A DNA stretch of 33,314 nucleotides from Chloroflexota bacterium. Its GTDB lineage: Bacteria; Chloroflexota; Anaerolineae; 4572-78. Made by a program: the position numbers and the translations under genes. The stretch spans positions 1-33,314 of the forward strand of contig DUEH01000007.1 of NCBI GenBank assembly GCA_011192195.1, in the 5' to 3' direction. The notes beneath the pieces are model-generated. The model was not told where the DNA came from. It was given only the letters and a program-made list of their open reading frames with translations, and did no database searches. Below are positions 6,784 to 33,314 of the stretch, one piece after another (the stretch's first letter is position 1; every line of letters starts with the position of its first letter).

Positions 6784-6852
6784 CAGAAAAAGCCTCAACT
6801 TCCTCGTTCCCGAACAGAGTTTGGGAACGAGGAAGCTGAGGCTTTTCTTCTG
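6784..6852. terminator. Strong bidirectional hairpin terminator between convergent genes
   Basis: AGAAAAAGCCTCAACTTCCTCGTTCCC ... GGGAACGAGGAAGCTGAGGCTTTTCT is a long near-perfect inverted repeat between the + strand YtxH gene and the - strand UPF0182 gene. Confidence 0.75.
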
Positions 6853-7006
6853 ATTTCGTAACTACTAAGGCTCAGGTGCGACGCACTTAACAAATTGCTT
6901 TTTCTAGCAAATAACTGTCCAATACAGTCAAAATTTGCACTTGAAAACCGTTTCGTGAAGTGCGTTGCACCTGTTTCCGCTTGTGGCTGAGTAGTTACCT
7001 GATTTC
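6850..7006. mobile_element. MITE-like element with 8-bp target-site duplication
   Basis: CTGATTTC direct repeats at 6850-6857 and 6999-7006 flank a 141-bp element with termini GTAACTACT...AGTAGTTAC and inner arms CAGGTGCGACGCACTT / AAGTGCGTTGCACCTG. No ORF inside. Confidence 0.75.
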
Positions 7007-7012
7007 TTTCTT

Positions 7013-9802: not shown

Positions 9803-9873
9803 AAGATTACTCCGTTTTGAATGGGTTTTTGGTTTTTTTGTTTCGAGTTTCTTGTTTTGAGATTCAGTTTTAG

Positions 9874-9921
<48 letters not shown>

Positions 9922-9942
9922 TTTCATCTTTTTCTGCTCTCA

Positions 9943-9997
9943 GCGGGTCCGCGACCCGCGTCTTGGACGCGAGGGTACGCCGGTTCGCGGAGCCGGC
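9943..9997. repeat. Cluster of three adjacent stem-loops (REP-like)
   Basis: GCGGGTC-CGC-GACCCGC (9943-9959), CGCGTC-TTG-GACGCG (9957-9971), GCCGGTTCGCGGAGCCGGC (9979-9997). Confidence 0.75.
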
Positions 9998-9999
9998 TT

Positions 10000-12900
10000 G
10001 AACCTGGGGAGAAACTAAACCGGCATTATACTGTCGCCATCCCGAATCTGTTTGCGCGAAACGTAAACGCAGGGCGTCGTGGTGGTTTAGCATAAGCTGC
10101 AAACTCTCTTCCAACAGGGCAGGCTCAAGAGGCTGCTGCAAGTTCAGAAGTAAAGGCATATTCCAGTGACGGGGCTGGGGCAAATCTTGCTCAAAGAACC
10201 AGCGCTGGATTGGCGTGAGGGGAAGCGGCCCCGTCACTGCGCCCTGTTCAGCCTGAACTTCCCGCGCCACACCGACAACCTTCGCCAGTTCAGCAATGGT
10301 TTGATGCTGGAAAAACTGTTTAGGCGTCAATCGCAATCCGGCCTGATTAGCCCTGGCAATGACCTGAATGCTCAAGATGGAATCGCCGCCTAACTCAAAG
10401 AAGTTGTCATTTCGCCCAACCCGCTCAATGCCCAGAACCTTTGCCCAAACGCTTGCCAAAGTTTCTTCGGCCTGATTTTGCGGCGGCGCAAAGGTCTCTT
10501 TCTGCTCGCTGCGGCGCTGATGGGGCGACGGCAATTGTCGGCGGTCAATTTTGCCGTTGGCGGTCAAAGGGAACGCATCCAGTACCACAAAAGCCGCCGG
10601 AAGCATATAGTCAGGCAAACGGCTCTTGAGATAATCGCGCAGTTCAACAATCAAGTCTTTAATAATTGATAATTCATAATTGCTAATTGCTAATTGTTCA
10701 GCCGGAACCACATAAGCCGCCAAGCGCTTTTGCCCCGGCCCTCCCGATCTATCCTGCCAAGCAATAACCGCCGCCTCACCCACCGCCGGATGCCGGGTCA
10801 GCGTCGCCTCTATCTCCCCCAACTCCACCCGGAAACCGCGAATTTTCACCTGATCGTCGGCCCGGCCCAGAAATTCAATGTTGCCATCGGGAAGGTAGCG
10901 GGCCAAGTCGCCGGTCTTGTAAAGATGCAGGGGAGCAGGGGAGCGGGGGGGCGGGGGAGCGGGGGAGAAAGTGAGTTCTTTCACTTTCCCACTTTCCCAC
11001 CTGTTCACCTGCTCACCTGCTTGAATAAACGATTCTGTCGTCAGCTCAGGGCGATTAAGATAACCCCGACTCACGCCTGCGCCGGCGATGTAGAGTTCGC
11101 CGGGGACGCCGATGGGGACGGGCTGGAGAGTTGCATCCAGCAGATAAACCTGAACGTTTGGCAGAGGACGCCCAATGGGGATGGTGGCGGAATGAGAAGA
11201 TGATTTATCCGCTTCAACGCGGTAGGTCGTCGCGCCGATGGTCGTTTCGGTGGGGCCGTAGTGGTTGAAGATAACACATTCCGGCGCAAGAGACTGCACC
11301 CTGTCTACCAGATCCCAGGTAGAAGCTTCGCCGCCCAAAATCAAGCGCTTGCGAGGCAAGATGTGTTCGGGGCCGGCGGCGCTTAACAAGGCGGCCAGAT
11401 GAGAAGGGACAATTTTCAACACGTCAACGGGATGACGGCGAAAATAATCGCTCAAGGCATTAGGGTCGCCGGCCCGCTCCCGCGAGATAATGTGCAGCGT
11501 TCCGCCGGTACACAGCGCGGCAAAGATAGCCGTGTTGCCCAGATCGGCGGCAAAGGTGGAAACAAGGGCGTAACTCAAGCCATCGCGCAGATCAAAACGC
11601 TCCAAAATGCCGTACAGGTAATTGGTCAACTGCCGGTGTTCAACCATCACCCCTTTGGGCGCGCCGGTTGAACCGGAGGTGAAAAGAATGTAAGCCAATG
11701 GATTTTGGATTTTGGATTTTGGATTTACGATTGCTGGTTGACTTCCTCCACCGGCTAAAGCCTCGACTCCGCGCTGATTAATACCATCCAAATCGTAAAT
11801 CGTAAATCGTAAATCGTAAATCTCCAGGATGGAGTTTCGGCGTTCTTCCGGCCAGTTGGGGTCAAGGGGCAAGTAGGCGCCGCCCGCTTTGAGAACGCCC
11901 AGCATCGCTACGATAAAATCGGCGGAGCGATGCAGGCTGATGGCGACGGGGGTTTCCGGTTCCACGCCCGGCAATTGCAGTCGCCGGGCCAGTTGCTCGG
12001 CCCGGCGATTCAGTTCTGCGTAGGTCAACTGCGTATCCTCGAACACAACAGCGACGGCGTTGGGGGTTTTGGCGGCCCACGCTTCAAAAAAATGATGGAT
12101 GAGCCGGTTCTGGGGGTAATCCCGCCCGGTGTTGTTCCAGGCGCTCAGGAGTTGATGGCGCTCCGATGCGGTCAGCAGCGACAGGGCTGAGACAGGCTGC
12201 GCCGGGTCGGCGACGACGCCTTCCAGCAGCGTTTGGAAATGTCCGGCCATCCGGGCGATGGTCTCCGCGTCAAAAAGGTCTGCGCTGTAAGTCAACGCGC
12301 CGGTCAGACCGTTTGGCGCGTCGGTCAGGGTCAGGGTCAGGTCAAATTTGGCCGTACCGCTGTCCGGGTCTTCAGCCGGAATTAAGGTCAATTCCGGCAG
12401 GGTTAGCGCCAGCATTGGATTGTTGCGCAGCGTGAACATCACCTGAAAAAGCGGCTGGCAGCTCAAATTGCGCTCAGGCTGCAATTCATCCACCAACTTT
12501 TCAAAAGGGAGTTCCTGGTGAGCGTAAGCGCCCAGAGCGGTTTCACGCACTTGAGCCAGAAGTTCCAAAAAAGCAGGGTCGCCCGACAGGTCTGTTCGCA
12601 AAACCAGCGTGTTGACAAAAAAACCAATCAGCCCCTCAATTTCGGCGCGGGTGCGGTTGGCAATGGGCGAAGCGACAATGATGTCCGTCTGTCCCGTGTA
12701 GCGATAGAGCAGCGCCTTGAAAGCCGTCAGCAAGGTCATAAACAGGGTGACGCCTTCCTGGCGGCTTAATTCTTTGAGCGCCCGGCTCAACGATTGGCTC
12801 AAACGTAACGGCTGCCGCGCCCCCCGAAAGCTTTGCGCCGGCGGACGCGGGCGGTCGGCGGGGAGGGAAAGGATGGGTAACTCGCCGCCAAGTTGCTTGC

Positions 12901-13705
12901 GCCAGTAGCTTAACTGCCTTTCCAGTCGCTCGCCGCGCAGCCAGTTTCGCTGCCAGCGGGCAAAATCGCTGTACTGGATGGGGAGCGGGGTCAGCGGCGA
13001 GGGCTTACCCGCTCGAAACGCCTGGTACAAAGCCGCCAGTTCCCGGATAAGAATTTCAATGGACCAGCCATCGCAGGCAATGTGGTGGATGACCAGCAGC
13101 AACTTGCGCCGCGTTTCGGACAGTCGCCAGAGAGAGACGCGCAACAGAGGCCCGCCAGCCAGATCAAAGGGGCGGCGAATCTCTTTGGCGATCAATCGCC
13201 CGGCTTCAGTTTCGCGCTCCGGCTCCGGCAAATGGCGCAGGTCAATCGGCGAAAGGCGGACAGTCAATTCAGGGGCAATTACCTGAATTGCTTCCCCATT
13301 CACCGAAGCAAACGAGGCGCGTAACACTTCGTGGCGGCGAATGATTTCGTTGAGGGCGCGTTCCAGAGCGGGAATATCCAGGCTTCCATCCAGATCAAAA
13401 ATAGCCGGGACGTTGTAGAGCGCGCTGCCCGATTCCAGTTGGTCCAAAAACCAAATTCGCTGTTGGGCAAAGGAGAGGGGGAGCGGGCCATCGCGTGAAA
13501 GGGGGGTAATGAGGGGGGCGTCAACAAGGGCGGCGGTCCTGGCCTCTTGCAAAAACCGAATGATGTCTGTTTTGCGGCGAGTCACTTCGGCCCGCAAGTC
13601 CGGCGTCAAGGCGTCAGGCGGCGCGCTATAACGCAGGCGCTCGCCTTCAAGCCAAAGTTTTATATCAAGTTGTCGAAGGCGGGAAAGAAAGTCGGTTGTA
13701 ATCAT
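10000..13705 (-). CDS. NRPS: TubC docking - C - A (Asp-like code) - T - truncated E/C domain
   Basis: TubC-like N-terminus 'FLSRLRQLDIKLWLEGERLRYSAPPDALTPDLRAEVTRRKTDIIRFL'; C motif HHIACDGWS; A3 'YILFTSGSTGAPKG'; 'HYGPTETTIGATTY'; T 'FFELGGDSILSIQ'; then 'GPLPLTPIQRWFFEQDLPQPRHWNMPLLL...NHHDALRLRFAQTDSGWRQYNAG', where homology appears to end (~10015). The ORF does not stop here but continues to 7013. Confidence 0.88.
10664..10698. repeat. AATTGCT-type heptamer array (5 units) in A-domain loop
   Basis: aattgat aattcat aattgct aattgct aattgtt. Confidence 0.8.
10928..11020. repeat. Octamer inverted-arm element in A-domain loop
   Basis: gagcaggg gagcgggg gggcgggg gagcgggg gagaaagt gagttctt tcactttc ccactttc ccacctgt tcacctgc tcacctgc. 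Confidence 0.9.
11700..11825. repeat. Heptamer element with two words (GGATTTT and CGTAAAT) in A-domain loop
   Basis: GGATTTT x3 + GGATTTACGATT, a spacer, then CGTAAAT x4. Confidence 0.9.
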
Positions 13706-15190: not shown

Positions 15191-18100
15191 TCACAACTCT
15201 CCTTCTTCACGAAGTTCCCCGTTTGAAGATGTGGCCTCAGTTCGTCCATAAGCTGCCCAACGAACAGTCTCTATGTATTCAGCCAGCCCGGCGACAGTTG
15301 GCGCGCTGAAAAGGCGACGCAGGGGCAATTCTACCTGAAAGGCGTCTCGCAGGCGAGAGATGAGCTGCGTTGCCAGCAGGGAATGTCCCCCCAACTCAAA
15401 GAAGTCATCGTGAATGCCCACCTGCTCCACGCCCAACACGGCGGCCCATATTTCGGCCAGATTCGCCTCTGTTGGGGTGCGGGGAGTCGCAAATTCCTGA
15501 GACAATCCCGCCCGCGATGAGTCGGGCGCGGGCAAGGCGCGGCGATCCACTTTATTGCTGGCTGTCAGCGGAAATGCGTCCAGAAAGACAAAGGCAGCCG
15601 GAATCATATAATCCGGCAAACGCGCAACTAAAAACTCACGCAGAACACTAATGACCGCCGACCGCTGACCGCTGACCGCCAAGCCAACGATGTAAGCAAC
15701 CAACCGCTTATCTCCCGGTCTGTCCTCCCGAAGCGCGACCACCGCCTCACTCACCGCCGGATGCCGGGCTAACGCGGCTTCAATTTCGCCCAGTTCCACG
15801 CGAAAACCGCGAATCTTCACCTGATTATCGACCCGGCCCAGAAACTCAATACTGCCATCGGGGCGGTAGCGGGCAATGTCGCCGGTCTTGTAAAGATGCA
15901 GGTGGGCAGGTGAGCGGGTGGGCAGGTGTGTAGGTGAGATTTTTTCTCCCCTGCCCACCTGCTCCCCTGCCCACCTGCTCACCTGCTCACCTGCCCACTT
16001 GCTAAATCGCTCCGCCGTCAACTCCGGGCGATTGAGATACTCGCGGGCCAGGCTGAAGCCGCCAATATGAAGTTCGCCGGGGAAGCCGATGGGAACGGGC
16101 TGGAGAAAGCGGTCCAGCAGGTAGATTTGGGTATTGGCAATGGGGCGTCCGATGGGGGGCAGCGCCGGCCAAGTATCTGCCGGGCCGGTCAAAGTGTGGA
16201 CGGTGACAACGTGGCTTTCGGTGGGGCCGTAGTGGTTGTGCAGGGCGCAGTTGGGCAAGCGATTGAACAGTTCAACAATCGCCGGGGTGATTTGCAATTG
16301 CTCGCCGGCGGTAACAATATCGCGGAGGTTGGCGGGGAGGACATCGGCGCTGCGCGCGGCCTCTGCCAGTTGGTTGAGGGCCACAAAGGGGAGAAACAGG
16401 CGCTCTATGCGGCGCTCGGCTAAAAAACGCAGCAAAGCCATCGAGTCGCGGCGCGTCTCCTCCGGCAGTAAAACCAGCGTTCCCCCCGCCGCCCAGGTAG
16501 AAAACATCTCCTGAAAAGCCACGTCAAAACTCAACGAAGCAAATTGCAGCGTCCGCGCAGGGCGAGATAAAGGCGAATCTTGCAAGTGCCACTGGATCAA
16601 ATTCGCCAGGGAACGATGGGGCATCGCCACCCCTTTTGGCCGCCCCGTAGAGCCGGATGTGTAGAGAATGTAAACCAATGACGAATGACGAATGACGAAT
16701 GACGAATGACGAATTTTTTCTGCTTTCACAGAATCGTAGTTCGTAGTTCGTAATTCGTAGTTCGTAACTCGTAGTTCGTAATTCTCCTGTTGGGTCAACA
16801 ACGCATTAATTCCAGCATCTTCCCTCATAAAGGCCAGACGTTCTTCAGGGTAGCCTGGGTCAAGGGGAACGCAGACGCCGCCGGCCTTGAGAACGCCCAG
16901 CACGGCTACAGCCATTTCGATGGAGCGTTCCAGACAGATGCCCACCGGTATATCCGGCTCCACGCCCAGCGATTGCAACTGACGCGCCAGTTGCCCGGCC
17001 CGACGATTTAGTTCCGCGTAGGTCAGGGATTGGTCTTCAAAGGTCACGGCAATGGCTTCGGGAGCGCGGGCGGTTTGCGCCTCAAAGAGGTGATGGACAA
17101 GGATGTCGGCGGGGTAATCGCGTTGGGTATCGTTCCAGTCAAGCAGCAGTTGACGCTCTTCGGCGGGCGTCAGGATGGGAAGTTGGGACAAGGGCGCGTC
17201 CGGCTGCCGGATAGCCGCATCCAAAAAAATCTCAAAACGTTGTTTCAGTTGCGCCGCGTCATCAGGGGAAAAAACCCTTGGATCCAGCAGCCAACGACAG
17301 CTTTGGCCGTCACTTCGGCCAGACTCAGTGCAGGCTTGAGCAATACCAACGGTCAGGTACGCGCCGGGAGCCGAACGCAGGGACTCAAGGTCTTCAAGCA
17401 GTTCAACGGCAACCGGCAGGGTGAAACGCGCCGGATCGCTCCGCAGTTCAGGATAGCGGGCAATCAGGTCGAGCGGGTAGGTGTGGCGTTTTTTAAGAGC
17501 CGCAATTTCTTCTTGCAGAGAATCCAGAGGAGCAAGCGGGTCCAAAGTAATGCGCCAGGGGATGTATGGCGCAAAAAACGCTTCCAGTCCGGCGACAGTT
17601 TGACGCAATTCCGGATAGGTAAAGGCCAGGTCAAAGGTGTATTGGTCGTTGAGGCGGGCGAGGAAGGCGGCAATGAGCGAGTGAGCGGGTAGGCAGGTGG
17701 GCAGGTGAGCAAAGAAATCACACCTGCCCACCTGCCCGCCTGCCCACCCGCTCACCTGCTTTTCACTGAACGGGAGAACAAGGGGCTGAAGGTCAAGCAG
17801 CCGTTTGCGCCAAAAAGACTCGCGGGGAGCAAGTTGGGCGTTGATTTGGGTCAGGCGATGGGCCAGATCCGGCGAAAGTGCGGGCAGGAGGTCGCCGGGA
17901 CGAAGGTTGTAACGGCTTGTCAAGGCGTTTGAGGGGAGCGATTGGCCGTCGAGGGCGGTTATCCGGCGCAAAATCGCGTTCCGGTCAGCGGCGGCGACGG
18001 TCAGCGCGTTCGGAGCGATAGCGACGATTACGCCGGGCAGCGCTGAAGCGGGGGCATCAAGGACTTCAAGGCTGCCAACAGCCAATGTCTCATCACCAAG

Positions 18101-18826
18101 CAAAAATTTAGGCAGCCCAAGTGGATTGGGATAGGCGCCAAAGGTGAGGGCGCGAGCCAGCGCGTCAATATCCAGAGCGCTGCGAGACCAGTCAATGACG
18201 CCGGCGGCAGGCGGACGTTGGCGGCGCGGAAAGTAGCTGCGTTGGCTTAAATCTTGAGGAGTACGCGTAATTTCAGCGCGGGCCTGCCCTGGGCCTGTCG
18301 AATGGGACAAGTCGTCAATCAGTTCGCGGAAAAGGCGCAGCGCTGTATCGTAGCTTTTGGCGTTCAGGGTGAGGGCGGTATCGGCGGGGCTAATATCAAA
18401 GAAACCCTGCTTCAAAATGTCGCCTGCGTCTGCCTGTTCGGTCATAATATGCCAGGTGACGCCGTGGCGAGTTTCCCCGTTCAAAATAGCCCACGATGTA
18501 ACGTGGAGACCGGCGTAACGGGGCAGCGGGCCATCGTGGTAATTGATGGCGAGTTGGCGGGGAGCGTTCAGGATGGGGAGAGGCAGAATCCGGTGGTTGA
18601 CAATGCTGAAGAGGTAGTCAACGGGTTGCCGCTGAAGGACGGTCAGAATGTTGTCATCGGGGGTGAAAAAGGGGAGGCCGCGTTCTTTTGCCCAGCGGGC
18701 CGCATCTGCGTCCGGGGAAACAAGAGCCTTGATGGTGTGTCCTTGCTCCAGCAAGATTTCCGCGCATTGAATGGGGAGCGTAGTTTCGCCAAAGATGGCG
18801 CAGGTGAATTTGCCGACTGACGACAT
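15191..18826 (-). CDS. NRPS loading-type protein: formyltransferase - degenerate C - A (Pro-like code) - T
   Basis: F domain 'AINYHDGPLPRYAGLHVTSWAILNGETRHGVTWHIMTEQADAGDIL'; A3 'YILYTSGSTGRPKG'; 'FDVAFQEMFSTW'; 'HYGPTESHVVTVH'; T 'FFELGGHSLLATQ'. ATG at 18826 (MSSVGKFTCAIFGE) rather than the listed 18895. Confidence 0.88.
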   Translation of the reverse strand: MSSVGKFTCAIFGETTLPIQCAEILLEQGHTIKALVSPDADAARWAKERGLPFFTPDDNILTVLQRQPVDYLFSIVNHRILPLPILNAPRQLAINYHDGPLPRYAGLHVTSWAILNGETRHGVTWHIMTEQADAGDILKQGFFDISPADTALTLNAKSYDTALRLFRELIDDLSHSTGPGQARAEITRTPQDLSQRSYFPRRQRPPAAGVIDWSRSALDIDALARALTFGAYPNPLGLPKFLLGDETLAVGSLEVLDAPASALPGVIVAIAPNALTVAAADRNAILRRITALDGQSLPSNALTSRYNLRPGDLLPALSPDLAHRLTQINAQLAPRESFWRKRLLDLQPLVLPFSEKQVSGWAGGQVGRCDFFAHLPTCLPAHSLIAAFLARLNDQYTFDLAFTYPELRQTVAGLEAFFAPYIPWRITLDPLAPLDSLQEEIAALKKRHTYPLDLIARYPELRSDPARFTLPVAVELLEDLESLRSAPGAYLTVGIAQACTESGRSDGQSCRWLLDPRVFSPDDAAQLKQRFEIFLDAAIRQPDAPLSQLPILTPAEERQLLLDWNDTQRDYPADILVHHLFEAQTARAPEAIAVTFEDQSLTYAELNRRAGQLARQLQSLGVEPDIPVGICLERSIEMAVAVLGVLKAGGVCVPLDPGYPEERLAFMREDAGINALLTQQENYELRVTNYELRTTNYDSVKAEKIRHSSFVIRHSSLVYILYTSGSTGRPKGVAMPHRSLANLIQWHLQDSPLSRPARTLQFASLSFDVAFQEMFSTWAAGGTLVLLPEETRRDSMALLRFLAERRIERLFLPFVALNQLAEAARSADVLPANLRDIVTAGEQLQITPAIVELFNRLPNCALHNHYGPTESHVVTVHTLTGPADTWPALPPIGRPIANTQIYLLDRFLQPVPIGFPGELHIGGFSLAREYLNRPELTAERFSKWAGEQVSRWAGEQVGRGEKISPTHLPTRSPAHLHLYKTGDIARYRPDGSIEFLGRVDNQVKIRGFRVELGEIEAALARHPAVSEAVVALREDRPGDKRLVAYIVGLAVSGQRSAVISVLREFLVARLPDYMIPAAFVFLDAFPLTASNKVDRRALPAPDSSRAGLSQEFATPRTPTEANLAEIWAAVLGVEQVGIHDDFFELGGHSLLATQLISRLRDAFQVELPLRRLFSAPTVAGLAEYIETVRWAAYGRTEATSSNGELREEGEL
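15653..15680. repeat. GACCGCT heptamer array in A-domain loop
   Basis: gaccgcc gaccgct gaccgct gaccgcc; same word as the 9874-9920 array. Confidence 0.9.
15899..16002. repeat. Octamer inverted-arm element in A-domain loop
   Basis: gggcaggt gagcgggt gggcaggt gtgtaggt ... ctcccctg cccacctg ctcccctg cccacctg ctcacctg ctcacctg. Confidence 0.93.
16677..16784. repeat. Heptamer element (GAATGAC left arm, CGTAGTT right arm) in A-domain loop
   Basis: GACGAAT repeats 16679-16716, spacer, CGTAGTT/CGTAATT repeats 16734-16784. Confidence 0.93.
17674..17760. repeat. Octamer inverted-arm element inside the degenerate C region
   Basis: gagcgagtgagcgggtaggcaggtgggcaggtgagc / cacctgcccacctgcccgcctgcccacccgctcacctgc; encodes KQVSGWAGGQVGRCDFFAHLPTCLPAH. 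Confidence 0.9.
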
Positions 18827-18833
18827 AGGTTTA

Positions 18834-19697
18834 TCAATCCAGCGCGTCATAGAGTTTATGTAAAGCGCGAGGCTTGGCGCGGGTAAGGGCGGCAACCTGC
18901 TGATTGGCGTCGCGGAGGCGCTGGCTCAAGACGTTGATCAGTTTCAATGATAGCTCGGAATTCTGGCGAGCCAGAGCCACCAACGGTTCGTGACGCAGAC
19001 TTAGAGTCAAGGTGTCTTGCAGGGCAACAGCCGCGGCAGAGCGAGCGCTGTTATCAAACAAGGTCATTTCGCCAAAGTAGGTATTTGCCCCCAGGCTTGC
19101 CAGACGAATGAAAGAGCCTTTGCGCTTGGCCTCCTGCTCAATGCCGACTTTGCCGCTGACAACCATGTAGAGCGCGCCGCCGGGGTCTCCCTGATTGAAG
19201 ATGCGTTGGTCTTCCTCAAAAATCTCTTCTTCGCACAGGGCGGCCAGGGATTTGAGCTGTTCGATGGTCATATCCTGAAAAAAAGGCACTTTCTTCAGGA
19301 AAATAATCTTCTCGATACTGGAAAGCATAGCGTCTTCCTCCTGATGAGCCGCGGTTCGTTGGGATACGGATTCACCTTGAGCGCGTCTTGCTCGATAGGC
19401 GGCCAAGCGTATTTCGGCAATTGACTCGCCGGCCATCAATCGTTGGGCGGCGCGGGCGGCCTGACGCACTTCGGCTTCGGGGTCATCAACGGCGGCCCGC
19501 ACAATGGCTTCGACTTCGGCCTGGGTTTTGGGCAGGTAGGCAGGTGGGCGGGTGGGCAGGTGGGCAGGCGAGACCTGAACCTCTGCATCAAGTGCATCCA
19601 AAGCGGCCAAGGGATCAATCGCGCGACTTCGACGAGCCGAGCGCGGTTTACGCCTCTCAGTCCGGTCTTCACTCTCATCGTCCAGCGCAGCCAGCAA
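18834..19697 (-). CDS. Cyclic-nucleotide-binding (CRP/CNB-fold) protein; probably the separated C-terminus of the upstream HEAT protein
   Basis: 'VPFFQDMTIEQLKSLAALCEEEIFEEDQRIFNQGDPGGALYMVVSGKVGIEQ...LGANTYFGEMTLFDNSARSAAAVALQDTLTLSL'. Alternative internal start at 19328 with good SD (AGGAGGAAGACGCTATG). Confidence 0.85.
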   Translation of the reverse strand: MLAALDDESEDRTERRKPRSARRSRAIDPLAALDALDAEVQVSPAHLPTRPPAYLPKTQAEVEAIVRAAVDDPEAEVRQAARAAQRLMAGESIAEIRLAAYRARRAQGESVSQRTAAHQEEDAMLSSIEKIIFLKKVPFFQDMTIEQLKSLAALCEEEIFEEDQRIFNQGDPGGALYMVVSGKVGIEQEAKRKGSFIRLASLGANTYFGEMTLFDNSARSAAAVALQDTLTLSLRHEPLVALARQNSELSLKLINVLSQRLRDANQQVAALTRAKPRALHKLYDALD

Positions 19698-22645
19698 ACC
19701 AGAGGCACGAACACGTCTCTCTCCCCGCTTCCTCGCCCCCTTTCTCCCTTTCTCCCTTTCTCCCTTTCTCCCCTGCTCCCCTGCCCACCCGCTCCCCTGC
19801 CCACCCGCTCATTCGCCCAAACTTCCCCCAGCGCGTAAACGGTAATCGCCCGCCGCCACGCATTACCGGTATTGGCGGTGAAGGCGTCAATGACGGCGTT
19901 GGCATCAAGGGGCGTAATGCCCCAGGTTTCTTCGCCAAGCTGCGCCAGCCGCGCCGAGGCGGCATCGGGGTCAAAGAGCGGCCCCATCAATTCAGCAGTT
20001 TGAGGACTGGTGAAGGTTTCAAGCGCTTCCAAAGCGTTGCTGCGGGCGCGCGCTTCGGAGCTATCCAGAGAATCAACCACCACGTCAATGGCCTGGCTCC
20101 CGTTCTGAACAGCGAGGAGAGTAAAGATTTCATCGAGCGTGTTCTGATTTTGCTCCCGCAGCGTGTCTTGCAGCAGCGTAACGCCGGTAGAACTGGCGAA
20201 AGGAGTCATAACCTGTAAATAGCCGTGATTGCGATAAATGGCTTGCAGATTATGGTTAATATGCTCCTCGATGAGCGGGCCAAATTCCCGGCGATCAACC
20301 CGGCTCAAGACCACAGCCGCCATCTTGCGCAACGCGGGGTCGGCGGCATTCAGATGAGGCCGGACGAGCGGAATAATCGCTTTGCCCGCCCGCGCCAGAC
20401 TTTCGACGGCGGCGGCGCGAACATCGGGGCTGGCATCGTTCAGGACTTTGACCACAGCTTGTTGGCTCTTCCGGCTGTCAATACGATTCAACACGGTCAA
20501 CGCCAATTGGCGAACGCGCGCAACAGGGTCATCAAGGCGGCGGATCATTAACGCCAACACTTCCGGCGCGCGCGTTTTGGTCAACAGCAAGTCATCCGGC
20601 AGGCTGGCAAAGGCCAGCATCGCTTCCAGGCGAGGAGAATCGGCGGGGTGTTCAAGGAAGTCAGACAGGGTTTTCATCGCCCGAAAATTGGCAATTTGCC
20701 CCAGAATTTTCATTCCTTGCGCTTGTAAATGAGGGTTATCGGCGTTTAGCAGACGGTCAAGCGCGTCAACAGCAGGGCGCATCTGATAAAAATCGCCTGA
20801 TTGGGACAAAATGGAGAAAGCCTCCATGCGCACGGCTGCGTTGGAATCTTGCAGCGCATCAAGCGCCGGTTGGCGAAGCGCGGCGTCGTCAGGGCCGTTT
20901 AATGCGGCCAATGCGGACAGGGCAGACTGCCGCACCCGCCCATCGGGATCGTTCAGGCAGTGGCGAAAGGTCTGAGCAACGGCCTCTTCGCGCATATCCG
21001 CCGCCGACATCGCGTCGATAATGGCGGCGCGCGCGTAAGGCGTACCGGCGTTTGTTAGGGCGCGGGTCAAAATGGGCGCAGCCGCCGAACCGCCAATCCG
21101 GGCGATAAGCCGGGCCATAAAAATGGCAAATTCCGGGTCGTCGCTCTTTTCCAGGCGACGTTCAAGGGAGGCCAGAGCCGCCGGGTCGGTCACGCTTAAG
21201 TCTGAGGCTTCCTGAGAAAAGAGAAAAGAGTAATCTTCCTCTGCCAGCATTTTGATGAGCGCGCGACTATAAAACTTGCGCACCGTCAAAATACTGACCA
21301 GGCAAGCAACCGCCAAAATTACCATTAAACCTGATACAAACCAGAGCGTTGAAACCAGGGGCAGCAGCAGAAGCAAACCGGCTAACAACGCGCCAACCGG
21401 CGTCACCAATCCGTTGACAAAGGCGCGCGCCCGCCCTTTTACCCGCAGAGGCACGGCGTTGTAGAGCAACCCTTCCACCGGATACCAAAAGGTCAAGCGA
21501 AATACGTTGCGGTCAAGATAGGCGGCCGAAGCGGCAATCAGGATAGCTGCGTCGCCGGTTAAACCGGATGAAGCCTGCCCTGATGAAAACTGAAGGGCTA
21601 TCAACCCCAGTACGATGACCAAGTTGCTGGCGGGAAAAATCAGCGTGGCGTTGGCTACTCCCAGACGGGCAATGATGCGGCTCACGCCAAATAGCAGCAT
21701 CGGCAGGACAATGATGTTGCCCGCGCCGCGCAAGTAGCCCACAAAGTTCGATATGCTTCCTGTGGGATTGGGGCTGTCGCTGTAAACCCGCAAAAAGAGT
21801 TCGCTGGCCCGGTATTCCAGCAAGGGCATCAAAATGGTTAGCAGCAACGTTCCGGCCACCATCCAACGCAGATAGGGTGATTTAAGGGTGTAGCGAAAGC
21901 CTTCGCGGAGATTATCCAGATATGCCTGTACTGAGCCTGGCCGAGGTGAGGCGCGTTGTTTTTTGGCGCTTGCGGCGGCTGTCGAGACGACGGACGGACG
22001 TTGGGTCTTGATGAGATGCGGCATTAGCCAAACCAGCGCCATCACCACTGCGTGGGCCGCCAGCCAGGCCGTAACAACGCCGCGCGGGTCGCCCAGCCAA
22101 TAGTTCAGCAAGAAAACGCTCAACCCGCCCACAATGGCGCCCACCCTGTAACCGGCAATGATCACCGGCATCATCCGTTTGGCGGTCTGGATGTCGTAAA
22201 ATTCATTGGTGTATGTAATCAAATGGGGGCCGGCCACCGCCAGCCAGGCCAATCCGATGACGTAGAGAAAGGAGAAGGCCATATCGGAATAGCCAAGCTC
22301 AAGCAGAAGCAGTCCCAGGATAATGCCGCCTGTTTCAACCGCGAAGATGATGTTCAGGAGTTTGTCGTTGGCAATACGATCAACAAAGGGGGTATAAGCG
22401 GCAATAGCCACGATAGACAGCGCGGCGCTGAAAATAAATATCCAGGGCAGCCCTGCCAGGCCGTCCCGCTCAAGAAAAGCGGCGTAAACTATAGAGTTGC
22501 CCCACACAGTCCCCATATTGACAAACACAAACATCAAAAACAGCATCGAGACGCGAGGCCATTCGGCGGGGCGAATGTTAAAGAGCTTGCTCAGTGAAGG
22601 GATAGTTGTTCTCCCGTTATTCAGCAGCCAAACTATCAGCCACAA
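19436..22645 (-). CDS. NTT/MFS-like multi-TM protein with HEAT repeats; out-of-frame C-terminal tail after an octamer repeat tract
   Basis: ~12 hydrophobic segments then HEAT repeats ('LNDPDGRVRQSALSALAAL', 'LNDASPDVRAAAVESLARAGKAIIPLV'). After GEVWANERVGRG the translation is low-complexity frameshifted sequence overlapping the CNB ORF. Confidence 0.8.
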   Translation of the reverse strand: MWLIVWLLNNGRTTIPSLSKLFNIRPAEWPRVSMLFLMFVFVNMGTVWGNSIVYAAFLERDGLAGLPWIFIFSAALSIVAIAAYTPFVDRIANDKLLNIIFAVETGGIILGLLLLELGYSDMAFSFLYVIGLAWLAVAGPHLITYTNEFYDIQTAKRMMPVIIAGYRVGAIVGGLSVFLLNYWLGDPRGVVTAWLAAHAVVMALVWLMPHLIKTQRPSVVSTAAASAKKQRASPRPGSVQAYLDNLREGFRYTLKSPYLRWMVAGTLLLTILMPLLEYRASELFLRVYSDSPNPTGSISNFVGYLRGAGNIIVLPMLLFGVSRIIARLGVANATLIFPASNLVIVLGLIALQFSSGQASSGLTGDAAILIAASAAYLDRNVFRLTFWYPVEGLLYNAVPLRVKGRARAFVNGLVTPVGALLAGLLLLLPLVSTLWFVSGLMVILAVACLVSILTVRKFYSRALIKMLAEEDYSFLFSQEASDLSVTDPAALASLERRLEKSDDPEFAIFMARLIARIGGSAAAPILTRALTNAGTPYARAAIIDAMSAADMREEAVAQTFRHCLNDPDGRVRQSALSALAALNGPDDAALRQPALDALQDSNAAVRMEAFSILSQSGDFYQMRPAVDALDRLLNADNPHLQAQGMKILGQIANFRAMKTLSDFLEHPADSPRLEAMLAFASLPDDLLLTKTRAPEVLALMIRRLDDPVARVRQLALTVLNRIDSRKSQQAVVKVLNDASPDVRAAAVESLARAGKAIIPLVRPHLNAADPALRKMAAVVLSRVDRREFGPLIEEHINHNLQAIYRNHGYLQVMTPFASSTGVTLLQDTLREQNQNTLDEIFTLLAVQNGSQAIDVVVDSLDSSEARARSNALEALETFTSPQTAELMGPLFDPDAASARLAQLGEETWGITPLDANAVIDAFTANTGNAWRRAITVYALGEVWANERVGRGAGGQGSRGEREKGRKGERGRGSGERDVFVPLVCWLRWTMRVKTGLRGVNRARLVEVARLIPWPLWMHLMQRFRSRLPTCPPAHLPTCPKPRPKSKPLCGPPLMTPKPKCVRPPAPPND
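19530..19572. repeat. GGGCAGGT octamer arm
   Basis: gggcaggt aggcaggt gggcgggt gggcaggt gggcaggc. Confidence 0.85.
19738..19810. repeat. Octamer tract (TTTCTCCC x4, then GCTCCCCT/GCCCACCC alternating)
   Basis: Read directly; coincides with the reading-frame break between the HEAT and CNB coding parts. Confidence 0.93.
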
Positions 22646-23375
22646 CCTGCAAGCTTTTGGCTATGGCGTGGTCGGGATAGTGAAGCGCAAAAATCCCCTT
22701 GCTGGCTAAAATCATCAGCTCGTCAGAGTGGGGTAAGATGGCGCCGACAGTGCAATCAAAAGTTTCTTCCATATCAGCTTGCATTTCGGCAAAATTGTAG
22801 ATGGTGGGGGCTTTGTTGACAATCAGGGTCAGGTTGGGTACTTTGAGTTTGCGCGCCACGTCAATGGTCACGCCCGTTCCCTGAATGTCCTGCTGGTCGG
22901 GGCGCATTATCAGCAGCAGGGTATCGGAAATGGCGATGGAGAGGAGCGTTTCTTCGTTGAGGCCGGGGTGGGTGTCAATCATCAGCACATCCAGGTCCAG
23001 CATTTCAATCAAATCCTGAAAGCCATCGTTGAGCAGGCCCACGTCGTAGCCATCGCGGAGGATGCGGGTTATGTCGGCGGCTTTTACGCTGGAAGGCACC
23101 AGATAGAGTTTTCCATCGCCTTGAATGTCCATTCTGGCGGTCATATCGTAGGCCGCTTCTTCAATGTCGCAGCGCTCCCAGAGAAAATCATTGAGAGTGA
23201 GGCCGGTCTCTTCCTCTTTCAGGCCAAAGAGAACGTGAATGCCCGGCGAGTTGATGTCGGTGTCTATGGCGCAAACTCGCAGCCCTTTTGCGGCCAGCAG
23301 GGCGCTGATGTTGGCGGTGGTGTTTGATTTGCCCGTACCGCCTCTAAATGAGTGAACTGAAACTATTTGGGACAT
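22617..23375 (-). CDS. MinD/ParA-like P-loop ATPase
   Basis: 'MSQIVSVHSFRGGTGKSNTTANISALLAAKGLRVCAIDTDINSPG' deviant Walker A, 'VLMIDTHPGLNEETLLSI' Walker B. Start reassigned to 23375. Confidence 0.9.
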   Translation of the reverse strand: MSQIVSVHSFRGGTGKSNTTANISALLAAKGLRVCAIDTDINSPGIHVLFGLKEEETGLTLNDFLWERCDIEEAAYDMTARMDIQGDGKLYLVPSSVKAADITRILRDGYDVGLLNDGFQDLIEMLDLDVLMIDTHPGLNEETLLSIAISDTLLLIMRPDQQDIQGTGVTIDVARKLKVPNLTLIVNKAPTIYNFAEMQADMEETFDCTVGAILPHSDELMILASKGIFALHYPDHAIAKSLQVVADSLAAE

Positions 23376-23395
23376 GGTTTTGCTCCTGTTTGTGG

Positions 23396-23478
23396 GTTTG
23401 TAGTCAGGTACGCAACGCAGTGGAGTACCGTCCGTTGTAAAACGCCACTCCGCTATCGCTGCGAGGCTCGCTACAAAC
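23396..23478. repeat. Intergenic inverted-repeat element with GTTTGTAG termini
   Basis: GTTTGTAG (23396-23403) / CTACAAAC (23471-23478), imperfect complementarity further in; no target duplication seen. Confidence 0.5.
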
Positions 23479-23492
23479 AATTACAACGCACG

Positions 23493-26400
23493 CTATGAAT
23501 CTAACGCAGACCAGATATCTATGGAAGACGATTTCTCTCGTTTCTCTCGCTTACGGTCAAAACCGGCCCGGTAGCGTCCGGTTTTTAGCTGACGCACGTA
23601 GCCTTTTTTGATCAGATCGTCCAATGCGCTTTGAACCTGCTCCGGCGGCAACTGTAAGTCATCGGCCAATTCGGTCAGGCTCAACCTGCGCCGCATAATC
23701 TTTCTGAAGATACTGAGCGACAAAGGCGGCAAATCCAGCAAAGCCGTTGGCGAGAACGGGGTCTGCAAAACGCTTTTGGCAAACTGTTTGAGCCAGATGT
23801 GATAATCGCCCGGCGAATTGTTGGCTTGAAGAGTTTTGAGCAACTCCGTCAATCCGGCGCGCGCGCCATCCTGGAGATTATGCTTATTCAAGGCAGTTTG
23901 CGCCAATTTCAGGGCGGGTTCTGTGCGCCCTTTTTGAGCCAGCAGCCAGGCGCGCCCGCCGTCAGCCCAGGGCTGCAACTCCGGCGTTGGCTCAAGCAAA
24001 GACAACGCATCCAAATCACCGGCGACGATAGCTTGTTTTTGCCGGGCGGCGGCGTTTCCCAGGGCTGCGCTGCGGGCGTAGGCTTCGGCAGCGGCGCGGT
24101 AATCGCCGCGAAGGGCCAGCGCGTCCGCCAGGCTCTCAAGAATAGCCGCTCGTTCCGGAGCGGGCAAGTCTGGCAAAGCCAGGACTTGCTGATAGTGTTC
24201 CAGCGCGCCGGCGTATTCGCGCCGATTTCTGGCCTGATCGCCGGCGCGGCGTCCATACTGGGCCGCTTTTGCGTCATCGTCGCCGCGCAGGTAATGGTAG
24301 GCAATTAGCGAAAGGGATTGTTCAGCCTGCCCGGACCGGGCCAGCCAATCGCCTGTTTGGGTGTGCCACCCGCGCCGCTGGGAAAATGACAGGGTGTTGT
24401 AGATGGCTTCCTGCATCAAAGGGTGCTTGAAACGATAGGTTGAATTGTCTACGGCAGTCACTAACGATGCCCGCGCGGCCTCTTCTAATGCCGTAAAAAC
24501 GGTCTCCTTGTCCAGCAATTCAGCGCAAATAGCTTGCAATCCCCTGGCGTCAAAGGTAGTTCCCATCACGGCGGCCCGTTTGAGAACGTTTTGATAGGCC
24601 AGCGGAAGTTCATCCAGACGAGCCAGCAAGAGGGCGTGCAAAGAGAGAGGCAGGGCGGGCGACTCTCTGGTCCAACCGGCCCAGCCGGTATGTCTGTCCA
24701 GAAATACGGCGTCGGCCCGTTCCAGCGCCCGGCATAACTCTTGAACGTACAAAGGGTTTCCCCCTGAGCGATGATAGATCCAGCGGGTCAGGTCATCGTC
24801 CAGAGTGCGCGCTCCCAAATGATGCCGGGCCACGCCCAGCGCCGCCTCGTTATTCAAAGGGTGGAGTTTCACCAACTTCGGAGACTTGTCCTGAGCGTGG
24901 TCGAAGAATTGAAGATTGGAGATTGGAGATTGGAGATTGTTAGAGTCGTTAATCTCCAAATCTCTAATCTCCAATCTCTGAAGACGCCCGGTCAGAAGCA
25001 GCAACAGCGGCAGGTTTTGCATTTGAGACAACAACTCATTCAGCAAATCCAGCGAAGTTGCGTCCAGCCAGTCAATATCTTCCAGAATGAGCAGGAAGGG
25101 CGAACGGGCGGTCAGTTTTTTGAACAGGACAGTCAGAATGTGAAGCGGGTCAACATCCGCTTCATCCGAAGCGCCCGATTCCCCCAAAGTGGCCTCTGCG
25201 GGCAGGTTCAGCAAATCGGCCAAGCGATTCTCCCACCGAGACAGGCCCAACGCGGCCAACTCCACCGACAGGCGTTCTCGCTGCTGAATTGCGTCGCCGC
25301 CGCCATCGGGGTCCAGCCAGCCAATCAATAAATCCAGCCAGGGAAAGAGGGGGACGTGCTTGCCGTGGGGTTGGCAGCGCCCAATCAAAATTGGCAAATC
25401 CTTTGCCTGCGCCGCCTGCGCCAGATGTGTAGCCAGCGCGGTTTTTCCCAGACCGGTTTCGGCAATGAGCAGCAGAACGCCTCCCTTGCCGTTTTGCAAA
25501 GCGTTCAGCGCGCCGGTCAAAAAATCCTGCTCAATTTCCCGACCCAGCAGCGGGCGTTCCAAAGGCTGCAATTGCGCGCCGTAACGCACATTGCGCACGT
25601 TGACAATAACCACCCGGCCATCTATGCCCTTCAACTCAACCGCCGGAAGTTCCTCGCCCACAAAAGCAGAGCGGGCGTCGCTCCAGATGTCGGAATCCAC
25701 AATCACCTGGCCCGGCCTGGCCTGACTCATCAGCCGCGCTCCTCTATTGACCGCCGGCCCGGCAATGACCGATTCGCGGCGGTAGCGGGCGCCAATTTCG
25801 CCGTTGAAGACCAGCCCGTGGGTAATGCCGCCTCGCTGGCGGAGGGGCGGATCCAGTTCAAATTCCCTATTGACCTGATCCAGCATTTGCGCCAGTTGCA
25901 GCGCGGCAGAGATGGCGTAGCGCGTGGTTCCTTCGTGCATTTTGGGGGAGCCGTAAGTGTTGAGCAAGAAAAACCCTTTGGCGCAGGCGTCTACCTGACT
26001 GATAACGCCTTCGTGCCGGGTGACAATCTCTTCGGCGCGAAGGAAGTAGCGCTGCAAAACCTGAGTAGCCAGTTCCGGGCCGCGCGCTGTCGCCAATTCT
26101 TCCAGCCCCAGCAGATTGATGTACTGCACCGCCGTAGGTCTAAACTCTGACTCTAAATGGCGATGGCGTTTTGTATTCACCAGACGGGCCAGCATATCTT
26201 CCGGCAGAAAAGGGGCCAAGCGTTCAACGTGTTGCAGCGAAACGTTCAGGGTTTGCAATACGTCGGGGAGGTCTTTGCTCAACAGAAGGGCGCCGCCTCG
26301 CTTGCGTGTGGGGGGCGATACTTCGTAATCGCCCAAATCGTCGCCCAGATCATCCACCACCTGCGCGCCGTTCAGGGTGAAATGCCCGGCGGCAGCTTGA

Positions 26401-27131
26401 CGCGCGCTCTCTCCCAAAAAGACGCGGCCCGGTTCGGCCTGAGCTTCTGCCAGCATTGCAGCGTGAACGCCCGATCCGCTGACCAGCAGTTCCATTCGCT
26501 CTGCATCCCCAACCACGCCGGCGTAAGCCTGACCGCGCTCTACGCCAATGCGCATCGAAAGGCTGCATTGACCAAATTCATTCTCGAAGGTGGAAAATGG
26601 CTTTATGGCGCGCTGCATTCGCAGTCCGGCCCGCGCCGCCTGAAGGGTATCTTCCGCATCATCCTGAGCCGGAAAATAAGCCAGCGCGGCGTCGCCGGCG
26701 AAGATCAACAAATCGCCCCCGGAAGCAATGAGCGGGTCCAGCAAGCTGCTAAACAGCTTGTTCAGCATCCGGTTCATCTCTTCCTGCCCGCGAGCGCGTC
26801 CCTGCCGGGCCAATAATTCGGTCAGCGCGGTGAAGCCTTTCAGGTCGGCGTGCATAAAGCTGCCGCTCAAAATTTCGCCGCGCGCCTGGCCGGGAAGCGG
26901 GGCCAGTTCGATGAGGTAGCGGGGCATATATTGAAGCAGCGTCCGGCGCAGCGGCTCCAGAGCGCGATTAGCCTTGAGCAGTTGCTGCGCCGCCCGACGC
27001 TGGGCAGCGTCATCAAGCTGCCGCAGATCATCCGGCAGGGCCAGCAGCCGATTGAATGTCTCGGCGGGCAGGTAGCGGGCCAATCGAGGGCGTATAGTTG
27101 ACCAGACTGGTGTGGTTGTTAAAGCGCTCAT
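23493..27131 (-). CDS. Class III nucleotide cyclase (tandem cyclase domains) - AAA/STAND ATPase - TPR - winged-helix-like protein
   Basis: 'GSFMHADLKGFTALTELLARQG', 'RIGVERGQAYAGVVGDAERMELLVSG', second cyclase-like 'AVQYINLLGL...ITHGLVFNGEIGARYRRESVIAGPAVNRGARLM'; P-loop 'LIAETGLGKTALATHLAQ'; Walker B 'LLILEDIDWLD'; C-terminal wHTH-like 'LSLTELADDLQLPPEQVQSALDDLIKKGYV'. Confidence 0.88.
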   Translation of the reverse strand: MSALTTTPVWSTIRPRLARYLPAETFNRLLALPDDLRQLDDAAQRRAAQQLLKANRALEPLRRTLLQYMPRYLIELAPLPGQARGEILSGSFMHADLKGFTALTELLARQGRARGQEEMNRMLNKLFSSLLDPLIASGGDLLIFAGDAALAYFPAQDDAEDTLQAARAGLRMQRAIKPFSTFENEFGQCSLSMRIGVERGQAYAGVVGDAERMELLVSGSGVHAAMLAEAQAEPGRVFLGESARQAAAGHFTLNGAQVVDDLGDDLGDYEVSPPTRKRGGALLLSKDLPDVLQTLNVSLQHVERLAPFLPEDMLARLVNTKRHRHLESEFRPTAVQYINLLGLEELATARGPELATQVLQRYFLRAEEIVTRHEGVISQVDACAKGFFLLNTYGSPKMHEGTTRYAISAALQLAQMLDQVNREFELDPPLRQRGGITHGLVFNGEIGARYRRESVIAGPAVNRGARLMSQARPGQVIVDSDIWSDARSAFVGEELPAVELKGIDGRVVIVNVRNVRYGAQLQPLERPLLGREIEQDFLTGALNALQNGKGGVLLLIAETGLGKTALATHLAQAAQAKDLPILIGRCQPHGKHVPLFPWLDLLIGWLDPDGGGDAIQQRERLSVELAALGLSRWENRLADLLNLPAEATLGESGASDEADVDPLHILTVLFKKLTARSPFLLILEDIDWLDATSLDLLNELLSQMQNLPLLLLLTGRLQRLEIRDLEINDSNNLQSPISNLQFFDHAQDKSPKLVKLHPLNNEAALGVARHHLGARTLDDDLTRWIYHRSGGNPLYVQELCRALERADAVFLDRHTGWAGWTRESPALPLSLHALLLARLDELPLAYQNVLKRAAVMGTTFDARGLQAICAELLDKETVFTALEEAARASLVTAVDNSTYRFKHPLMQEAIYNTLSFSQRRGWHTQTGDWLARSGQAEQSLSLIAYHYLRGDDDAKAAQYGRRAGDQARNRREYAGALEHYQQVLALPDLPAPERAAILESLADALALRGDYRAAAEAYARSAALGNAAARQKQAIVAGDLDALSLLEPTPELQPWADGGRAWLLAQKGRTEPALKLAQTALNKHNLQDGARAGLTELLKTLQANNSPGDYHIWLKQFAKSVLQTPFSPTALLDLPPLSLSIFRKIMRRRLSLTELADDLQLPPEQVQSALDDLIKKGYVRQLKTGRYRAGFDRKREKREKSSSIDIWSALDS
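24908..24982. repeat. GGAGATT heptamer hairpin inside the AAA domain coding sequence
   Basis: gaagattggagattggagattggagattgttagagtcgttaatctccaaatctctaatctccaatctct; encodes LEIRDLEINDSNNLQSPISNLQ. Confidence 0.95.
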
Positions 27132-30496: not shown

Positions 30497-33314
30497 ATGA
30501 CCACTACTTCAACTACACCCAGCGCAAGCCTGAACAAACTGGCGCTGGCCTTGAATATTCGCCCCGACGAAAATCGCCTGGTGATGTTCTTCCTGTTCCA
30601 CTCATTCTTTGTGGGGATGGCGCAGGTATTGGTCTCCACAACCGCCAGCACCTTATTCCTCGATAGCTTTCAAGATCAAAGCGCCCGGTACCTGCCTTAT
30701 GTCTATATCGGGACGGCGATAGTCGCCTCGTTGATTGGGATTTTATACACCAAACTTGAAAAACCGCTTTCCTTCACCCATTTGCTGAGCGCCAATTTAA
30801 GCTTGCTCATCATCGCTCTGGTTGGGTTTCGACTTGCGTTCACCCCCCAGGCCCGGGCCGTCGTTATGGCGCTCTACATCTGGTACTACGTGCAAGACGC
30901 CCTGATTAATCTGGAATTTTGGGGGCTGGCCGCCAGCATCTTCAACGTGAGGCAGAGCAAGCGTCTCTTTGGACTCATTGGCATTGGCGAAATGCTTGCC
31001 CGGATCATCAGCGGCTTTTCAGTGCGCCCGCTGGTCAAGGTAATTTCTCCGGAAAATTTACTGTGGATTGCGGCCGGCGCCATTGCGCTGTGTCTGGTTT
31101 TTATGCTGAAAATTATGCGCGCTCACCAAAGCAGTGGCGGACAGACGCAAAACGCCCGCGCCGCAGACTCTTCAGCAAGCGCAGGACAGGCCCATTCGTC
31201 ACCTTCGGCAGGGCAGGCCCGGCGATCATTTCGAGAGTTGCTTCAAAGTCGCTACATTCAATTGATGGTCGCGCTGACCGTTTTATCGCTGCTGGGCTAC
31301 TACTTTGTGGACATTGCCTTTCTGGGTCAGGCGCAGGCGCAATTTCCGGACAAAAACGAATTGGCCGGCTTTTTGGGCGTCTTTTTCGCCATCATTGGCG
31401 TACTGGCCTTTTTGAGTCGCCTCTTTTTATCCGGCCCGCTCATCAGCCGCTATGGTCTGGCCGCGGGGCTGCTGGCCCTGCCGATAGCGGCGGCGGTGGG
31501 CGCCGCATCAATGGCGGTCATGGGAACAGTTTCCGGCGCAACAACCGCCCTCTTCTATCCCGCCGCGCTGACCAAGCTGAATTTCATCGTCTTCCGCAAA
31601 TCAACCGATAAATCCGCCTTCCCCATTTTGTACCAACCCCTGCCGGAAAATGAACGCGTCACCGTTCAAACCGTGATGGAAAGCATTGTGGCGCCTGTTG
31701 CCAGCGGTTTGGCCGGAATACTTCTCTTACTGTTATCGTTTAGCATTGTGCAAATTTCCTGCGCCCTGCTTCTTGTTTTTGGGGTCTGGATTGTCCTGAT
31801 TATCTCCCTGAACCAGGAATACAAAAACGCCCTCCTGAATGCCATTACTAAACGCAGGTTGGGGGGGATTGATCTGAATCTAACTGATAACGCCAGCCTG
31901 AGCGCTCTGGAAAAAAGCCTGAAAAGCCAACATCCCGGCGAAATCATTTACGCTCTGGACGTAATGGAAGAGGCAGAACACCCGAATTTGGAAAAAACCC
32001 TGAAAAAGCTGCTCCGCCACCCCGCCAAAGAAGTGCGTCTGGACGTATTGCGGCGCATCGAGCGCCTGGAACTGACCGGCGCGTTGAAGCGCGTTCAAAA
32101 TCGCTTGCGCCTGGAAAGTTCGCCGGAAGTATTGGGCGCAGCGGTGCATGCCTATACCGCGCTGGGCGAAAGCGACGCGCTGGAAGAAACGCTGCCTTAT
32201 CTGGATGATTCCCGCCCGCAGGTTCGACTGGGGGCGATGGTTGGGATGCTGCGCAGCGGCGGCGTTGAGGGAGTGTTGGTTGCCGGCGAGCGATTTATCG
32301 CCCTGAGCCGTTCAGACAAGCCGGAAGAACGCGCCTTTGCCGCCGAGGTTCTGGGCGAGGTTGGCATCCCGAATTTTTACCGGCCATTGCTCGATCTGCT
32401 GCAAGATGATTCTTTCGCAGTCCGTCGAGAAGCCTTGCAAGCCGCCGGAAAGCTGCGCGTTCCGCCGCAACTACGTCCTCTGGTAACGGCCAATTTAAAT
32501 GACTATCGCGTTAGAACGGCAGCGGTCTCAGCTCTAACAACTGGCGGCAAAGCAATCATCCCTTTCCTGGCCGAAGCTTTGGAACAACCCGGTCAATCAT
32601 CCCGCGCGCTGAGCCAAATTGCGCGCGCAGCCGGACAGATCAAGGGCAATGAAGCCACCGACCTGCTGCGAGACAACATCGCCTGTCCCGATGAAACCGT
32701 ACGCACTCAGGTATTGACCTCTCTGAGCCAGCGCCGCTACCAGGCCAATGAAACCGAAACTCTTTTCATCCAGGAACGCATCCGCGCCGAAGCCGCCGAC
32801 GCCGCCTGGACTTTAGCCGCGCTGGTTGACCTTGCGGGAGAGCGGGTGAGCAGGTGGGAAAGTGAGCGGGTGAGCAATAACAAAAAAAATCACCCGCCCA
32901 CCCGCTCACCCGCTCTATCCCTACTGCGGAACGCGCTGAGGCGCAAATTAGATGGCTGCCAGGAACGCATCCTCTTGCTCCTCAGCTTGCTCTACAACCC
33001 GGAAGCGATTCTACAAGCCAAAAAAATTCTTGCCCTGAGCGCAGCCGAAGGGCTGGGAAAGTCCGGCGCGTCGAAGGCTTGTCTTGAGCCTGGTCGAAAG
33101 AATAAAAACAGAGCCTACGCTCTGGAAGTGATTGACGTCTTCATCCCGCAAGCGTTGAAGCCAATGCTCTTCCCTCTACTGGAAGAACTGCCCCCCGACG
33201 AGCAATTGGAGCGGCTTGCAGACGCCTTTCCGCAGCCGCAGCTATCTCTTGAAGAGCGGTTGGTTCAAATCATTCAGACAAATGGCGAATTACGAATTAC
33301 GAATTACGAATTAC
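30497..33314 (+). CDS. Second NTT/MFS-like multi-TM plus HEAT-repeat protein, 3'-truncated by window edge
   Basis: ATG at 30497 (MTTTSTTPSASLNKLALALNIRPDENRLVMFFLFHSFFVGMAQVLVSTTASTLFLDSF...), TMs then HEAT repeats ('LDDSRPQVRLGAMVGMLRSGG', 'LQDDSFAVRREALQAAGKL'). Open to the last base; absent from the supplied ORF track, probably because no stop lies in the window. Confidence 0.85.
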   Translation, partial: MTTTSTTPSASLNKLALALNIRPDENRLVMFFLFHSFFVGMAQVLVSTTASTLFLDSFQDQSARYLPYVYIGTAIVASLIGILYTKLEKPLSFTHLLSANLSLLIIALVGFRLAFTPQARAVVMALYIWYYVQDALINLEFWGLAASIFNVRQSKRLFGLIGIGEMLARIISGFSVRPLVKVISPENLLWIAAGAIALCLVFMLKIMRAHQSSGGQTQNARAADSSASAGQAHSSPSAGQARRSFRELLQSRYIQLMVALTVLSLLGYYFVDIAFLGQAQAQFPDKNELAGFLGVFFAIIGVLAFLSRLFLSGPLISRYGLAAGLLALPIAAAVGAASMAVMGTVSGATTALFYPAALTKLNFIVFRKSTDKSAFPILYQPLPENERVTVQTVMESIVAPVASGLAGILLLLLSFSIVQISCALLLVFGVWIVLIISLNQEYKNALLNAITKRRLGGIDLNLTDNASLSALEKSLKSQHPGEIIYALDVMEEAEHPNLEKTLKKLLRHPAKEVRLDVLRRIERLELTGALKRVQNRLRLESSPEVLGAAVHAYTALGESDALEETLPYLDDSRPQVRLGAMVGMLRSGGVEGVLVAGERFIALSRSDKPEERAFAAEVLGEVGIPNFYRPLLDLLQDDSFAVRREALQAAGKLRVPPQLRPLVTANLNDYRVRTAAVSALTTGGKAIIPFLAEALEQPGQSSRALSQIARAAGQIKGNEATDLLRDNIACPDETVRTQVLTSLSQRRYQANETETLFIQERIRAEAADAAWTLAALVDLAGERVSRWESERVSNNKKNHPPTRSPALSLLRNALRRKLDGCQERILLLLSLLYNPEAILQAKKILALSAAEGLGKSGASKACLEPGRKNKNRAYALEVIDVFIPQALKPMLFPLLEELPPDEQLERLADAFPQPQLSLEERLVQIIQTNGELRITNYEL
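32837..32916. repeat. Octamer inverted-arm element inside HEAT coding sequence
   Basis: gagcgggt gagcaggt gggaaagt gagcgggt gagc ... cacccgcc cacccgct cacccgct c; encodes GERVSRWESERVSNNKKNHPPTRSPAL. Confidence 0.93.
33286..33314. repeat. CGAATTA heptamer array running off the window
   Basis: cgaatta x3-4 up to the last base. Confidence 0.9.

Follow-up and report, generated by a model that had tools for sequence, protein, structure and literature searches.

A conserved internal start for a predicted free CNB protein within NTT-HEAT-CNB fusion genes, and an octamer array that splits one such gene in a Chloroflexota assembly

Internal in-frame starts in bacteria yield C-terminal isoforms, as seen by start-site ribosome profiling, and the genomes of cyanobacteria contain dispersed short non-triplet tandem units, the short tandemly repeated repetitive (STRR) heptamers. 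The locus analyzed here lies in a window of 33,314 nucleotides (the whole stretch of DNA that was analyzed, from a contig of a Chloroflexota metagenome assembly) and shares features with both systems. As in the known bacterial internal starts, a Shine-Dalgarno (SD) sequence and a start codon lie within a longer ORF and a shorter C-terminal protein is predicted; it differs from them in that the start is conserved to family-to-class depth at a domain boundary, and in that two genomes present a separate gene as the alternative. Like the STRR heptamers and other dispersed short repeats, the repeats found here are short, non-triplet, tandem and dispersed over the genome, but their units are octamers, often arranged as inverted pairs, that have expanded in this genome (158 matches as against none in five genomes of the same family), and they are also found inside genes as in-frame peptide insertions. 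For the gene family itself, the passages of Major, Embley and Williams (2017; PMC5381601) that bear on it describe a cNBD gene placed a few nucleotides after an NTT-HEAT gene as well as fused NTT-HEAT-cNBD genes, and the window locus has the identical three-module order of the fusions in those passages. No nested start is mentioned in the passages of that paper on fused genes, whereas the fused relatives analyzed here keep the SD and start of the separate cNBD; compared with the fused form described there, the repeat in the window genome returns the gene to the split state. A search of the open-access literature for nested starts in the NTT-HEAT-CNB family found none. The locus also resembles slipped-strand contingency loci and the frame transitions linked to translational coupling (Antonov et al. 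2013, PMC3711429) in having a non-triplet coding repeat and a downstream half preceded by an SD of its own, and differs from them in that this SD is conserved in relatives without the frame break.

The gene is broken in this assembly by a non-triplet tandem array of octamers within its coding sequence (array 1, Table 1). The preliminary description of this DNA had noted that the HEAT frame enters an octamer tract and leaves it in the wrong frame, with a linker and the CNB domain open in the offset frame, and both points were confirmed by the ORFs and by the alignment with orthologues. The NTT-HEAT ORF is genuine coding sequence until about position 19815, after which approximately 125 wrong-frame codons of low complexity lead to its stop, and the CNB ORF (18834-19697, reverse strand, when counted from its first listed start) belongs to an open frame that runs through a basic linker (LLAALDDESEDRTERRKPRSARRSRAIDPLAALDALD) into the CNB domain, which ends at 18834. 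Comparison of the codon starts of both ORFs showed that joining HEAT to CNB takes a shift of -1 (or +2), and the arithmetic given earlier, by which the loss of one unit (-8) or the gain of two (+16) restores a single ORF, is correct. In the HEAT frame the orthologues can be aligned as far as residue 942 (about 19817), and the alignment is taken up again from LLAALDDESED (about 19700) in the CNB frame, a stretch that matches the linkers of the one-piece orthologues; the frame break is thus not a matter of chance. There is no further stop or frameshift across the 943 NTT-HEAT codons or in the CNB frame. NTT-HEAT residues 1-942 are 38-47% identical to the one-piece orthologues of the same order, and the window protein is homologous over the entire membrane domain. 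It gave no match to PF03219 (TLC) at E 0.01, a profile matched by three of the eight members of the alignment (the window protein and seven homologues), with a best value of 7.5e-9.

Table 1. Features of the split gene and of its neighbours, in positions of the window
Feature	Position	Strand	Remarks
Formyltransferase-NRPS (AMP-binding, PP-binding)	15191..18895	-	Downstream; ORF overlaps the CNB stop
Free CNB protein, 164 aa (predicted)	18834..19328	-	Conserved internal start ATG 19328
Linker + CNB frame	18834..19811	-	Offset -1 from HEAT frame; cNMP_binding 1.2e-17
Internal Shine-Dalgarno AGGAGG	19337..19342	-	8 nt upstream of ATG (19326-19328)
NTT-like membrane domain + HEAT repeats ORF	19436..22645	-	1069 codons; HEAT_2 (PF13646) 5.6e-31
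Octamer array 2	19529..19573	.	Inverted relative to array 1; read in CNB frame as SPAHLPTRPPAYLPK in linker; TRF
Octamer array 1	19738..19819	.	CTTTCTCC x4 merging in register into CCTGCTCC/CCTGCCCA/CCCGCTCC variants; TRF; frame-breaking
-1 slippery heptamer A_AAG_GGA (X_XXY_YYZ)	19745..19751	-	HEAT frame, inside array 1; possibility only; follows from the repeat unit
ParA/MinD-type ATPase	22617..23480	-	Upstream; same order in L064
Adenylate/guanylate cyclase + AAA_16 protein	23493..27131	-	Domain matches; same order in L064

Examination of 36 distinct relatives, taken from genomes of the same order, class and phylum and from GTDB contigs, identified NTT-HEAT-CNB as one open frame in every one of them, mostly of 1,080-1,480 codons and of 930-1,110 codons in the more distant relatives. 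The cNBD that stands in a separate frame from NTT-HEAT in this assembly is thus part of the same polypeptide in all 36, in agreement with the earlier supposition that the three modules normally form a single protein, and no other genome examined shares the frame break. Orthologues with HEAT and CNB as separate genes, which would have spoken against that supposition, were looked for, and the close relatives do not have them. Separate CNB genes do occur at the phylum level: in L158 (G405:C242) NTT-HEAT and CNB are adjacent genes 12 nt apart (7049-8209 and 8222-11029), the CNB gene having an additional N-terminal part of about 217 residues, and in L159 (G584:C39) a fusion without the nested start is accompanied by a separate CNB gene nearby (8327-8830 and 4317-7949). 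The nearest genomes, which belong to the same family, lack close copies of the gene, and no second assembly of the same species was found, with a contig scan that may omit near records. When TRF was run on the 36 orthologue ORFs, none contained an octamer tract except L123 (G364), where a short, independent tract, CTCTCCCT x4.4, occupies linker residues 979-990 in frame.

The suggestion that an SD and the ATG at 19328 could express a stand-alone CNB protein proved to be the most important part of the preliminary description, as both the start and the SD are present in 30 of 30 close orthologues (those at about 40% CNB identity or above). At the homologous position 20 of these sequences have ATG, six GTG and four TTG. 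Any other of the 1,144 well-filled columns of the alignment has a start-type codon in at most 5 of the 30 (mean 0.6%), in genes where TTG makes up 19% of the Leu codons and GTG 42% of the Val codons. The SD at the nested start has a duplex energy of -6.0 kcal/mol or better and a spacing of 5-9 nt in all 30 orthologues, with an exact AGGAGG in 21; among the 2,749 in-frame start-like codons elsewhere, 6% have a comparable SD. Its mean energy is -10.8 kcal/mol, against -6.4 kcal/mol under synonymous resampling of the same residues, a difference whose z of about -8.7 is inflated by kinship. The SD could partly be the relic of a once separate gene; against this argues its persistence through the start-codon changes, at least seven of which, among ATG, GTG and TTG, are placed by the protein tree within the 30-member set. 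Six more distant homologues lack the nested codon; in its place they carry an ATG 6-7 codons farther upstream, whose SD is weaker or equal (-4.3 to -10.3 kcal/mol). One of the six, L138, falls within the main clade as a long branch. At the phylum level GTG and SD are kept in G654 and G406 and are missing in G584. These results are independent of the present assembly, and from the sequences we conclude that an internal start under selection lies within the fusion gene, from which a predicted free CNB protein of about 164 residues is presumably made in cells. A widespread and uncharacterised transporter-sensor fusion hence appears to bear a conserved second gene inside it, one that would escape annotation pipelines calling a single ORF.

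Array 1 can also be written as four TTTCTCCC units (5.4 units by TRF) passing in register into (GCTCCCCTGCCCACCC)x2.2. A tandem of four perfect TTTCTCCC units is found nowhere else in the 3.23-Mb assembly, and the same is true of TTTCTCCCTTTCTCCC; this confinement of the perfect tandem indicates that units were added in place, which speaks of past slippage and not of an ongoing switch. Array 2, overlooked in the preliminary description together with the conservation of the internal start, is 82% complementary to array 1 over 45 nt and maintains the CNB frame, and at the RNA level the two arrays form a long hairpin (z -4.8). Among the pattern matches of the octamer family in this assembly inverted pairs are frequent, and two genomes of the same order contain 44 and 6 matches. 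We found no report on such octamers in Chloroflexota in the open-access literature. For the behaviour of arrays within genes we sampled 35 stretches in addition to the window, approximately 246 kb, picked for their octamer arrays and not representing the whole genome, and took as intragenic an array of 7 or 8 bp units within an ORF that stays open for 150 codons or more on both sides. The 41 other intragenic 7-/8-mer arrays so identified, distributed over 17 ORFs, are all in frame, and array 1 is the sole intragenic array among those sampled to break a frame, so that changes of unit number within genes appear to be either infrequent or strongly disfavoured by selection. A general tendency of the arrays to disrupt genes of this genome was rejected, as the remaining cases with different frames or stops are boundaries between different genes, recognisable by inspection as trpC/trpF-like and lutB/lutC-like.

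Taking these results together, we consider it probable that the array reversed the fusion, at a position that tolerates such a break, and left two cistrons, with the CNB protein translated from the conserved nested start. The ancestral gene would have encoded one polypeptide consisting of an NTT-like membrane domain, HEAT repeats, a basic linker and the CNB domain, and a nested ribosome-binding site and start within it would have yielded CNB alone, giving two products from one gene. A lineage-specific octamer repeat would then have entered the linker and put its two sides out of frame; ribosomes coming from NTT-HEAT would terminate at 19436, some 110 nt short of the internal start, and only the separate products would be left, NTT-HEAT ending in a junk tail and a free CNB begun at ATG 19328. 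Such a break would be tolerated because the modules on either side of it are translated independently, and it probably detaches the membrane half from the sensor while sparing the sensor itself: since free CNB could be made regardless of the array, the consequence would be uncoupling and not an OFF state. In such a scenario the window illustrates how a short repeat may undo a gene fusion at one low-cost place.

This reading supposes that the source cells really carry the assembled unit number, as they presumably do. That number rests on one contig of a metagenome assembly of 301 contigs that is 74% complete, in which several contigs end within 7-/8-mer arrays; arrays 1 and 2 are moreover inverted repeats, and all the remaining sampled intragenic arrays keep the frame, as would be expected if the true unit number differed here and the fusion were intact. 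We regard such an error as unlikely, given that 82 bp should be within the reach of ordinary short reads and that the same pipeline assembled the frame-keeping arrays. The earlier proposal of slipped-strand phase variation, in which the unit number of array 1 would toggle between a fused protein and NTT-HEAT plus free CNB as an ON/OFF switch, draws on a unit length that is not a multiple of three, by which a single-unit change restores or breaks the fusion, on the four perfect TTTCTCCC units that expanded in place at this locus, and on two halves that are otherwise intact ORFs. The linkers of the orthologues, however, have no conserved octamer tract, the one short tract in L123 being in frame, and the arrays within other genes give no hint that they flip freely; the switch is so far unsupported and we hold it to be unlikely. 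It is still less likely, in our opinion, that NTT-HEAT-CNB genes are obligate two-product genes in which the octamer array here acts as a reversible coupler setting the output of the fused transporter-sensor.

That the fusion is decaying after the insertion, as in a pseudogene under way, would agree with a break seen in this genome only, but seems very unlikely for a locus whose two halves show no other lesion, whose operon order is intact and whose internal SD and ATG are retained. Some full-length fusion could be produced by -1 ribosomal frameshifting in the purine-rich array, where a heptamer of the X_XXY_YYZ type (A_AAG_GGA, 19751-19745) lies in the HEAT frame, the direction of the shift is the required one, an SD-like AGGGAG is located upstream and the arrays are able to pair in the mRNA. 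Such a heptamer is bound to appear wherever an (GGGAGAAA)n tract has at least three units, is not conserved, and is enclosed by the hairpin instead of lying just upstream of it, and we regard this explanation as highly improbable. Transcriptional slippage was rejected, the site being without a long homopolymer.

The undoing of the fusion that we favour concerns a gene within an operon of cyclase-AAA_16, ParA/MinD, NTT-HEAT-CNB and formyltransferase-NRPS, which occupies 15191-27131 of the window and recurs in the same order at 289-12352 of L064. This shared order suggests that the neighbouring cyclase is probably the source of the cyclic nucleotide for CNB, and the free CNB protein is expected to bind it. 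The window CNB has the phosphate-binding Arg (FGEMTLFDNSARSAA), and the corresponding column of the cyclic-nucleotide-binding site has R in 21 of the 34 sequences that cover it; as the Arg is not universal, the ligand may differ among the members of the family. The nested start offers a testable handle on the regulation of this operon.

Two further sets of observations concern the same repeats elsewhere in the window and in the assembly. A second NTT-HEAT-like gene (30530-33314, forward strand), 26% identical to the first, contains an in-frame octamer hairpin at 32834-32915 and is truncated by the contig end within a CGAATTA heptamer array. Contig ends inside 7-/8-mer arrays were observed at 33286-33314 of the window and in contigs C30, C37, C122 and C148 of the same assembly (G000), which suggests that the arrays limit assembly. 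The NRPS-type ORFs at 15191-18895 and 7013-13705 have many in-frame 7-/8-mer arrays (for example, NYELRVTNYELRTTNYD...IRHSSFVIRHSS and KQVSGWAGGQVGRC...HLPTCLPAHS), and these in-frame repeats are insertions tolerated as peptide inserts.
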